From Chitinophagaceae bacterium (GTDB lineage: Bacteria > Bacteroidota > Bacteroidia > Chitinophagales > Chitinophagaceae): DNA of 64,000 nt. Positions 3,932-7,743 of this stretch are shown here, piece after piece; position 1 is the first letter of the stretch, and every line of letters starts with the position of its first letter. The DNA lies in contig JAQBNK010000164.1 in assembly GCA_028288595.1 (NCBI GenBank), forward strand, positions 1-64,000, read 5' to 3'. Below the pieces are notes generated by a model. It saw only the letters and a program-made list of their open reading frames with translations, had not been told where the DNA came from and did not search any database. The position numbers and the translations under genes were made by a program.

Positions 3932-5648
3932 TTAATGTGAATCTTTCGTAACATCACTGCCAGAGCCGCCGTTTAAAAAATCGAGATCAGCACCCAGGTG
4001 TGCCTGCTGTACATGTTGCTGATATAATCGCACATAACCTCTATCCGCGACTTTTATATTAGGCTGCCATTTTGCTTTTCGTTTTGCAATTTCCTCATCA
4101 GGGACATTCAATGTTATTTTCCTGTTGGGAACATCAAGTGTAATTGAATCTCCATTCTTCACAATTGCAAAAGTTCCACTTACAGCAGCTTCGGGTGATA
4201 CATGAAGTACCACCGTTCCAAAACCGGTTCCACTCATCCGCCCATCAGAAATACGAATCATATCGGTAACTCCTTTCGCTAAAAGTTTTGCGGGTATTCC
4301 CATATTGCCAACTTCAGGCATACCCGGGTAGCCTTTCGGACCCACATTTTTCAAAACCAAAATACTGTTTTCATCTGCTCCAAGATCCGGATCATCAATT
4401 CGATGTTTATAATCTTCTATGTCTTCAAAGACGATTGCGCTTCCTGTATGTGTCAATAGATTTTTGCTCGCTGCAGAAGGTTTTAATACAGCACCATTCT
4501 CACAAAGATTTCCTGTTAACACCGCAATGCCGGATAGCTGATTAAAAGGTTTATCAACAGTTGCGATCACGTCGCGGTTATGGCATTCTTCTTTATAGAT
4601 AATTTTCGCTGAGCGTTTTTCCATTCACCGTTATGCAATCGTTATGAAGAAACTTTTCAAGTTCATTCATAACAGCAGGAATTCCTCCTGCATAATAAAG
4701 GTCTTCCATAAAATATTTTCCTGAAGGCTGCAGGTTGGCAACAAGCGGAATATTTCGTGATAGCGTATCGAAATCTTGCAGCGAAAGTTCAACCCCGATC
4801 CTTCCGGCAATCGCAAGCAAATGAATAACAAAATTGGTGGACCCGCCTATTGCCGCATTCACGATGATCGCATTTTCAAAACTTTTCCTGGTAAGAATAT
4901 GGGAAAGGCGAATATCCCTCTTCACCCTTTCAACAGCCTGCATTCCGGAGAGATGCGCTAAAACTTTTCGTCTCGCATCGGCAGCAGGGACCGCAGCATT
5001 ATGAGGCAACGATAATCCAAGAGACTCTACCATTGCAGCCATTGTAGAGGCGGTTCCCATTACCGCACAATGTCCGTGACTCCTGCACATACTGGCTTCC
5101 GCCATCACAAGCTGGTCCTGGTCCATAACTCCAGACCGTACGGCATCATCAAATCTCCAGAGGTCAGATGTACCGATATCTTTTCCGCGGAATTTACCAG
5201 TTAGCATCGGCCCGCCAGATACAACAATTGTTGGAATATCTACACTACATGCACCCATAAGGAGTGATGGAGTTGTTTTATCACAACCGCACAGCAGCAC
5301 TACTCCATCAACCGGGTTGGCACGAATGGACTCTTCAACATCCATGCTAACAAGATTTCTATACAGCATGGCCGTGGGCTTTATTAATGTCTCGCCTAAT
5401 GACATTACCGGGAACTCAACAGGAAAACCTCCGGCTTCATAAACACCGTGTTTAACTGATTCGGCAAGTTCCCTGAAATGCGAATTACATGGTGTAAGTT
5501 CCGACCATGTATTGCAAATGCCGATAACGGGTCGTCCATCGAATTCATGTGAGGGTATACCCTGGTTCTTCATCCATGCACGATAGATAAAACCGTCTTT
5601 ACCTTTTCTGCCAAACCAGTTTTGACTTCGAAGTTTTTGATCATTCAT
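3932..5648 (-). pseudogene. IlvD/Edd-family sugar-acid dehydratase, interrupted by a one-base frameshift
   Basis: Two overlapping reading frames together form one dehydratase of about 570 residues. The N-terminal part runs from 5648 (MNDQKLRSQNWFG; an ATG at 5660 is possible) to a stop at 4593; the C-terminal part continues in another frame to 3932. It resembles L-arabinonate-type dehydratases (GICNTWSELTPCN, GCDKTTPSLLMGA, SHGHCAVMGTAST), with the cysteines that would hold an Fe-S cluster. The C-terminal part has NRDVIATVDKPF and SDGRMSGTGFGTVVLHV. At 4599-4606 removing a single base restores a continuous family-like segment SENIYKEECHNRDVI, so one extra A (plus strand, about 4601-4602) explains the break. 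A genuine mutation, an assembly error or rare recoding are all possible. It is the first gene of an operon with an SDR and an Ldh_2 enzyme. Confidence 0.88.
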
Positions 5649-5944
5649 ACTGAACAACAACTTAATCTATCCTGAAGACTTTTCAAAGGCATAAACCCCG
5701 GGGAGATCTTTTTTAGAATTTGAACTTATAGCAAAGTATATGGATTACGTTCTCTTACGGATGGCTAAATTCTGTTGTTCGTTTTCCCAAAACTGTTGTC
5801 TGTTGACGGGGCTTTTACCGGCTGTGTTATTTAGGTATCCTTGTTGAACAAATCAAAACAACGTTTTGAAAGGTTAGTTGGTGATCTGAACTTTCAACAG
5901 CAAGGCTTTCATTCCTATTTGATCAATAATTAAAACCCAACCTT

Positions 5945-6694
5945 ATGGAAATTTTAATGCCTGCCGTACAACGTTCTAAAACAAAAGTTTACTGGCATCT
6001 TGCAGCGGACATTCTTTCCCAGGCCATCAATGGCGAAATTGCTGGCATGTCGAACTTCGCACTGCTCACAGCCACGATAGACGATGTACATGAAAAAATG
6101 GAATGCGTAGAACATGCTAATTGTGAGCGTAATCATGCAGAAGGATTTATGCAAATAGCAAAGAAATTCAACCTTCCCGTTGTTATTAATCCCAACGCAC
6201 ACTACTGGAAAAAAGTAAAAGAAGTATTTGCACGATGGGCCGAACGAAAAGATTTTATTGCCTGCATAATTATACAGGAAGTGGTACTGGAATGTTTTGC
6301 CGTTTCCATGTATAAGGATGTAGGTATGGCCCTCGCAGATAATGAAGTAGGGCAACTTTTTTTAGAAATATCTAAAGAAGAGGAAGAGCATATTGAACAT
6401 TCGATCGATCTTCTGAAAGCAGAACTTAAAAAAGATTACACCGGGTTTATTGAGAAGGTTGAGAAAGTGCATGATGATTGTATGAAGATCATGGCTGAAT
6501 GGACGGTGACGAGAAATTGCGACGATAGTTGTGGTGTATGCGATGGCGATTGTATGAAGACAAGACTTTACGCCGCCGACCTCGATATTAAAACACTCCG
6601 CGGCAATGCTATGAACCTGTATATGAAAACGCTGGATAGAATTGGCATACCGGGTATAAAAAGTCTTGAATGGGTAACCAATCTTCCAATATAG
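5945..6694 (+). CDS. ado: Aldehyde-deformylating oxygenase-like ferritin-fold diiron protein
   Basis: The 249-residue protein follows the pattern of cyanobacterial aldehyde-deformylating oxygenase, which turns fatty aldehydes into alkanes one carbon shorter plus formate. All six diiron ligands can be placed: Glu31 (NGEIAG), Glu61 and His64 (CERNHAEGFM), Glu116 (VLECFAV), and Glu146/His149 (EEEEH). Segments such as CIIIQEVVLECFA and the final helix before a GIPGIKSLEW tail also match by eye. A difference is a cysteine-rich insert, C192-x3-C196-x2-C199-x3-C203, which I do not recall from cyanobacterial enzymes and which could bind a metal or Fe-S cluster. The following reductase gene starts inside the 3' end (25-base overlap), so the pair is translated together. 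The 296-base divergent gap upstream separates it from the sugar-acid operon; no convincing promoter box was found there. A related ferritin-like oxygenase with another substrate is the main alternative. Confidence 0.82.
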   Translation: MEILMPAVQRSKTKVYWHLAADILSQAINGEIAGMSNFALLTATIDDVHEKMECVEHANCERNHAEGFMQIAKKFNLPVVINPNAHYWKKVKEVFARWAERKDFIACIIIQEVVLECFAVSMYKDVGMALADNEVGQLFLEISKEEEEHIEHSIDLLKAELKKDYTGFIEKVEKVHDDCMKIMAEWTVTRNCDDSCGVCDGDCMKTRLYAADLDIKTLRGNAMNLYMKTLDRIGIPGIKSLEWVTNLPI

Positions 6695-7743
6695 AATTTG
6701 CTTTGATCGGCCACCAGGACTGCTGGAAAAATATTACCCGTTTCGTTGATTTCCTTTCTGATGGAAAACGAAACCTGACTGCTGAACAGGTTGCAGAAGT
6801 ATATTCTTTTATTCCACCCCGAATGGTGTTCGATGTAGAAGTACGCTCTGTTACCGGCCAGGTAGCAAAGGGTTGCTACATTGAAACCTTTATTGCCCCG
6901 GATGAGTTAGGCATGAGGTACTGGAAAAAAAATGTAATCAAGGTTAAAGAAGCCGCTGAATGCGCAAGGAAAATGCACGCCGGAATTGCTGGATTGGGTG
7001 GTTTTACTTCTATTGTACTCGAAGGGAAAGATAATTCGTTGAATGAAACTTCGAGTACCAAATTCACTACCGGTAATTCGCTGACAGCTGCTTTTATTGT
7101 AAAAAATATAGAAAAAGCCTGCAGTCATTTTAATAAGGATCTGAGAGATCTTCAATTGCTGATTATCGGCGCTACGGGAGATATTGGCTCAGCCTGCGTT
7201 CAATACTTTTCAGGGAAGGTCAAAAAGTTTTTACTCTGTGCCCGGCAGCAAGTAACACTTGATGCGTTAACTAAAAGTCTTCACGACAGAAGAATAGGTG
7301 CAGAAGCGTCAACAGACATCAGGAAACTTTTACCGGAAGCAGATATCGTTATCGCTATCACGAGTTCAACGATTGAAAACTTCGATCCGCTCCTTTGCAA
7401 AAAAGATATAATTATTTGCGATGCGGGTTATCCGAAGAACCTTGTATTTGATCTTAAAGGTGCCTTTAGTGAACGTTTATTTTGCGGCGGTATGGGACAA
7501 ATAAAAGGCGGTTATTCTTTCACCCCGCAAATACATCATGAATTTTATGATTTTCCTGTTCAGAATGCAGGGCACGGCTGCATGCAGGAAGCAATAGTGC
7601 TGGCACTGGAAAAAAACTACCAGCCTTATTCAACAGGCAAGGGAAATATTACGCCTGAAAAAATAGAATGTATATATGAACTTGCCCGGAAACATGGAAT
7701 TACAGAAGCACCATTGTTTAATTCTTTGGGTATGTGGAGCTAA
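6670..7743 (+). CDS. aar: Long-chain acyl-ACP reductase-like protein (fatty aldehyde forming)
   Basis: The 357-residue protein carries the hallmarks of cyanobacterial acyl-ACP reductase, which reduces acyl-ACP with NADPH to a fatty aldehyde through a cysteine thioester. Visible matches are FALIGHQDCW at the N-terminus, SVTGQV (60-65), GLGGFTSIV, FTTGNS (132-137), the Rossmann motif GATGDIGSA (168-176), DAGYPKN (251-257) and GHGCMQEAIVLALE, whose Cys304 aligns with the catalytic cysteine. The start at 6670 overlaps the oxygenase gene by 25 bases; the next ATG would remove the conserved N-terminus. With its partner it would form a two-step acyl-ACP to aldehyde to hydrocarbon route. Use of another acyl donor, or fatty aldehyde or alcohol as end product, cannot be excluded. 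A weak stem with a T-run at about 7754-7781 may end the transcript. Confidence 0.85.
   Translation: MGNQSSNIEFALIGHQDCWKNITRFVDFLSDGKRNLTAEQVAEVYSFIPPRMVFDVEVRSVTGQVAKGCYIETFIAPDELGMRYWKKNVIKVKEAAECARKMHAGIAGLGGFTSIVLEGKDNSLNETSSTKFTTGNSLTAAFIVKNIEKACSHFNKDLRDLQLLIIGATGDIGSACVQYFSGKVKKFLLCARQQVTLDALTKSLHDRRIGAEASTDIRKLLPEADIVIAITSSTIENFDPLLCKKDIIICDAGYPKNLVFDLKGAFSERLFCGGMGQIKGGYSFTPQIHHEFYDFPVQNAGHGCMQEAIVLALEKNYQPYSTGKGNITPEKIECIYELARKHGITEAPLFNSLGMWS

Follow-up and report, generated by a model that had tools for sequence, protein, structure and literature searches.

Hydrocarbon synthesis by an acyl-ACP reductase (AAR) and an aldehyde-deformylating oxygenase (ADO) is known mainly from cyanobacteria, where FAAR/ADO is found in 122 of 139 genomes (PMC3903477). 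Two overlapping genes on a Chitinophagaceae contig, of which a stretch of 64,000 nt was analysed here (the window), had been described from their sequence as a cyanobacteria-like hydrocarbon pathway, which raises the question of whether a member of the Bacteroidota carries that pathway or a related system of another kind. The products of both genes are distantly related to the cyanobacterial enzyme pair that converts fatty acids into alkanes, and the features on which this assignment rests are as follows.

5945–6694, + strand: ADO-like diiron oxygenase gene, 249 aa (PF11266 above cut-off, six aligned ligands, AF2 model)
6670–7743, + strand: AAR-like acyl-ACP/thioester reductase gene, 357 aa (TIGR04058 over full length, PDB 6jzq)
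6670–6694, + strand: 25-base overlap of the two genes (sequence; relatives share the offset of the ATG)
6035–6391, + strand: diiron ligand codons E31 (6035–6037), E61 (6125–6127), H64 (6134–6136), E116 (6290–6292), E146 (6380–6382) and H149 (6389–6391)
7168–7194, + strand: nucleotide-binding motif GATGDIGSA, residues 167–175 (aligned with GATGDIGSA of 6jzq)
7579–7581, + strand: Cys304, counterpart of the catalytic Cys294 in S. elongatus AAR (alignment; invariant in 27 rows)

A gene pair related to ADO and AAR

The two open reading frames lie in the order oxygenase, then reductase, and share 25 bases, which bears out the coupled pair of the original prediction, and the window genome has one copy of each gene. 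Together with 27 related loci the window makes up a set of 28, and an AAR-like gene was found in all 28 loci that have the ADO-like gene (window included). The two genes are neighbours in the same order in 24/28 loci, again counting the window, and a single gene intervenes in the remaining four; the overlap measures 25 bases in 23/27 loci, which is likely to reflect translational coupling. Measured against the nearest relative (L009), the two genes gave pS values of 0.78/0.85 and pN values of 0.13/0.17, which places both under strong purifying selection; the gene pair is not a chance pattern.

The ADO-like protein scored 50.7 bits against Pfam family PF11266 (Ald_deCOase), above the gathering cut-off of 28, and missed the equivalog cut-off of NCBIfam TIGR04059 (222.65) with 51.2 bits. 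Residue-for-residue alignment placed E31, E61, H64, E116, E146 and H149 on the positions of S. elongatus ADO (PDB 4rc7) that we take to be its diiron ligands, and these six columns were invariant in a 27-row alignment of ADO-like proteins, in agreement with the earlier claim that the oxygenase keeps all six. When the AlphaFold (AF2) model of the protein (pLDDT 92) was compared with the PDB using Foldseek, the 26 best matches were all ADO (TM 0.71–0.77), with the next class at least two orders of magnitude worse in E-value, and an ADO fold is predicted from this model. The features shared with cyanobacterial ADO (PF11266, TIGR04059; PDB 4rc7, 2oc5, 6jzu) are the fold, the six diiron ligands, the C-terminal helix and the AAR partner gene, whereas the differences are the low identity to solved ADOs in structural alignment (14–19%), the profile score (51 vs 223 bits) and an insertion of ~18 residues with an HCCC/CCCC motif.

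The AAR-like protein matched TIGR04058 with 169 bits over residues 10–345, missing the equivalog cut-off of 449.7, and aligned over nearly its whole length with the solved cyanobacterial AAR (PDB 6jzq, E = 8e-38). The profile search that had been proposed for the pair thus recovered the oxygenase above the PF11266 cut-off and the reductase at full length, below equivalog level. All four motifs originally listed for the reductase (SVTGQV, FTTGNS, GATGDIGSA and DAGYPKN) were read in the translation, and Cys304, claimed as the catalytic residue, falls on Cys294 of S. elongatus AAR, the residue mutated in PDB entry 6jzz ('AAR-C294S'). Cyanobacterial AAR (TIGR04058; PDB 6jzq) therefore aligns with the protein over nearly its full length and shares its nucleotide motif, catalytic Cys and DxGYPKN motif, but the scores are far apart (169 vs 450 bits) and acyl-ACP reduction is here a prediction from sequence. 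The reductase domain of PigE-type reductase-aminotransferases is likewise homologous (NF053554, 87 bits; plasmid homologues 23–30% identical), but the aminotransferase domain is missing here and the partner is a diiron protein.

The cysteine-rich insertion of the ADO-like proteins

The ADO-like proteins contain a motif that resembles a metal site, positioned in the window as follows.

6518–6553, + strand: C192-x3-C196-x2-C199-x3-C203, metal-site-like motif in an insertion of ~18 residues that is lacking from cyanobacterial ADO

The motif cysteines lie in a loop that separates the sixth main helix from the helices at the C terminus, and the length of the insertion follows from the 43 positions of this region as compared with 25 in S. 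elongatus ADO (profile-to-PDB alignment). C196, C199 and C203 were invariant in 27/27 aligned ADO-like proteins and also present in L050, and the fourth candidate ligand is His195 in 24/28 ADO-like proteins (window included; 23 of the 27 aligned rows), with the other four (window, L009, L020 and L023) having Ser at position 195 and Cys at position 192. On a tree built without the motif columns the CCCC-form proteins needed three changes, and an origin of these four proteins in a single clade was rejected (p = 3e-6). Such repeated exchange between His and a nearby Cys would be the pattern expected from a four-ligand metal site, for which the motif is a candidate, and a metal with a structural or redox role, either Zn or Fe-S, is probably bound in the insertion.

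The Cys form was restricted to genomes lacking DUF3419, a family encoded beside the pair in most relatives, as it occurred in 4/5 genomes without DUF3419 versus 0/22 with it (Fisher p = 0.0003, uncorrected for phylogeny and based on few independent events). An absolute link of DUF3419 with His195 was rejected, as L050 combines His with the absence of DUF3419. The association hints that the chemistry of DUF3419 and the added site are linked.

Operon context and proposed function

The genes are arranged in the order acyltransferase, ADO, AAR, DUF3419 in 20 loci, and the same order is seen in L033 with a desaturase placed between ADO and AAR, while ADO-AAR-DUF3419 of L013 is located at a contig end. 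A fatty-acid desaturase lies downstream in many loci. The DUF3419 proteins, presumably members of the BtaA family, gave full-length Pfam matches of 237–247 bits, and a search by sequence found no solved relatives of DUF3419. The acyltransferase is a two-domain GNAT protein, the model of which matches N-myristoyltransferases (NMT) with TM 0.6–0.65. In L006:3301-6769 (same genome as L014), genes for a cytochrome P450, an NAD-dependent epimerase/3-beta-HSD and a glyoxalase-fold protein extend the operon, suggesting a larger biosynthetic cluster.

Several genomes have less than this set. The nearest relative, L009, has the acyltransferase and lacks DUF3419 genome-wide, DUF3419 was found nowhere in the genomes of L020, L023 and L050, and a search of the window genome (98.6% complete) found neither DUF3419 nor the acyltransferase. 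The window genome is thus the minimal form, in which the central pair alone is retained, and since its two genes are under purifying selection although the other operon genes are missing genome-wide, the ADO/AAR pair constitutes the functional core, with the other genes as accessories. AhpC/TSA genes related to SelL are inserted between ADO and AAR in L020:10760-11455, L023:10695-11414 and L050:6933-7688, and such insertions were seen only at loci without DUF3419; the inserted gene of L050 overlaps ADO, again by 25 bases. Cyanobacterial ADO is inhibited by peroxide, and AhpC/TSA-type genes at these three loci would suit an enzyme with the same sensitivity.

We favour the reading that the AAR-like enzyme forms an aldehyde which is processed by its diiron partner, with a probability of about 0.7. 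Cys304 of the AAR-like enzyme would accept a long-chain acyl group carried by ACP (or CoA), and a nicotinamide cofactor would serve to reduce this group to a fatty aldehyde, which the translationally coupled ADO-like oxygenase would take into its helical bundle and process oxidatively, in the simplest case by deformylation to a Cn-1 alkane or alkene and formate. Known ADO turns over slowly and depends on an external electron donor. By homology to ADO, an alkane would be the simplest product, and we give it about even odds. In most relatives, where genes for a BtaA-like 3-amino-3-carboxypropyl transferase and an NMT-fold acyltransferase accompany this module, it would probably feed a lipid pathway, and the window genome has retained the aldehyde-making and aldehyde-consuming core alone. 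Weighing against the favoured reading, both proteins fall far under the equivalog cut-offs and the oxygenase has what appears from the alignments to be a novel Cys motif, while the NMT-fold acyltransferase, DUF3419, desaturase and P450 are foreign to the cyanobacterial route. The description of the locus as a cyanobacteria-like hydrocarbon pathway therefore stood as regards homology, ligands, catalytic Cys and coupled pair, but its wording was too strong, because of the missed equivalog cut-offs, the Cys-rich insertion and the acyltransferase, BtaA-like and desaturase neighbours.

Lipid tailoring agrees with the operon context no less well than simple alkane production does, and the conservation of the operon makes a pathway with a non-hydrocarbon product a serious rival. 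In such a pathway the ADO-like enzyme might oxidise or couple the aldehyde from AAR, and attachment of aminocarboxypropyl (via DUF3419/BtaA-like protein) and N-acyl groups (via the NMT-fold acyltransferase) would yield an unusual amino lipid, of which the window genome would make a precursor or simpler form. The 20 complete loci, together with L033 and the partial L013, the adjoining desaturases, the resemblance of the acyltransferase model to N-myristoyltransferases and the full-length DUF3419 matches all speak for such a pathway. The genomes of the window, L009, L020, L023 and L050 nevertheless keep the pair without DUF3419, in the window genome without the acyltransferase as well, so that the pair is useful even in their absence, and we regard lipid tailoring as possible rather than probable. 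Still somewhat more tentative is the extended proposal that the family represents a second type of ADO that carries an additional HCCC/CCCC metal site and acts, together with the NMT-fold acyltransferase and the BtaA-like aminocarboxypropyl transferase, in a dedicated Bacteroidota lipid operon that makes an undescribed lipid class.

Deformylation would be absent altogether if the ADO-like protein were a redox, protective or scaffold protein of the ferritin-like type, and the AAR-like protein a general thioester reductase producing aldehydes or alcohols. Cross-matches of the ADO-like protein to rubrerythrin and encapsulin ferritins, its extra Cys motif and the use of the AAR fold in other pathways, as in the PigE-type reductase domains, are consistent with this, but the exclusive ranking of ADO in the Foldseek comparison, together with the constant pairing and translational coupling with AAR, makes it improbable.

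Distribution and descent within the Bacteroidota

Scanning 84,980 species genomes yielded 26 loci, every one from Bacteroidota, although the scan relied on two short peptide patterns and remote members may be missed. Sampling of genomes showed the family in 4/296 from the window's own family, 4/397 and 4/391 from two other families, and 2/395 across the phylum (window genome counted), and these draws added one further member, L050. The ADO/AAR family is therefore rare (~1% of genomes in the sampled families) and patchy in Bacteroidota. The gene tree conflicts with taxonomy, as two Algoriphagus species are in different main clades and Cyclobacteriaceae as one clade was rejected (p = 7e-56), which indicates that the genes moved horizontally within the phylum.

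The Bacteroidota relatives are 47–79% identical to the window protein, and a profile of the 27 relatives matched solved cyanobacterial ADOs with 43–61 bits, which suggests that the family is about equally distant from all of them and represents a separate deep branch rather than a recent cyanobacterial import. Recent transfer of the cyanobacterial pathway into the window genome, for which the patchy distribution could be cited, is highly improbable given these exclusively Bacteroidota relatives, the similar distances, and a GC content of the pair equal to the window average. The locus had been proposed to be either transferred or ancient; horizontal movement within the phylum stands, whereas a recent gift from cyanobacteria does not agree with the similar distance to the solved ADOs.

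Viral carriage was rejected, as a scan of viral contigs with both protein alignments found none, and plasmid carriage of the ADO-like gene was looked for and not found. The only match in a phage collection was 26% identical over part of AAR, on an unannotated faecal contig filed as phage, which holds a stretch of AAR/PigE-like reductase (L057:2501-3178; MT835709.1:14604-15281).

A 2023 metagenome study of Lake A (PMC10176705) reported a long-chain fatty aldehyde decarbonylase gene of Flavobacteriaceae and proposed alkane production, and this gene probably belongs to the same family as the window's ADO-like gene. The accessible part of the paper does not describe an AAR partner, an operon or a Cys motif, and our search of the open-licence literature, covering ADO in Bacteroidetes and the combination of DUF3419 and AAR, turned up no account of the operon. 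The expectation that the pair would be a new lineage is thus upheld for a separate, rare and patchy Bacteroidota family, and is qualified by the earlier Flavobacteriaceae gene. A deep separate branch in heterotrophic Bacteroidota would supply new ADO variants and a new biogenic hydrocarbon source or a new lipid class, and would offer a comparison for the evolution of the ADO/AAR pair. The family is testable because its carriers include named isolates (Algoriphagus, Robiginitalea, Tamlana and Aestuariibaculum).

Elsewhere in the window, an IlvD/EDD-type dehydratase (3932–5660, − strand) is encoded in two overlapping ORFs, of which one has a complete N-terminal and the other a complete C-terminal domain; this split is a frameshift or an assembly error.
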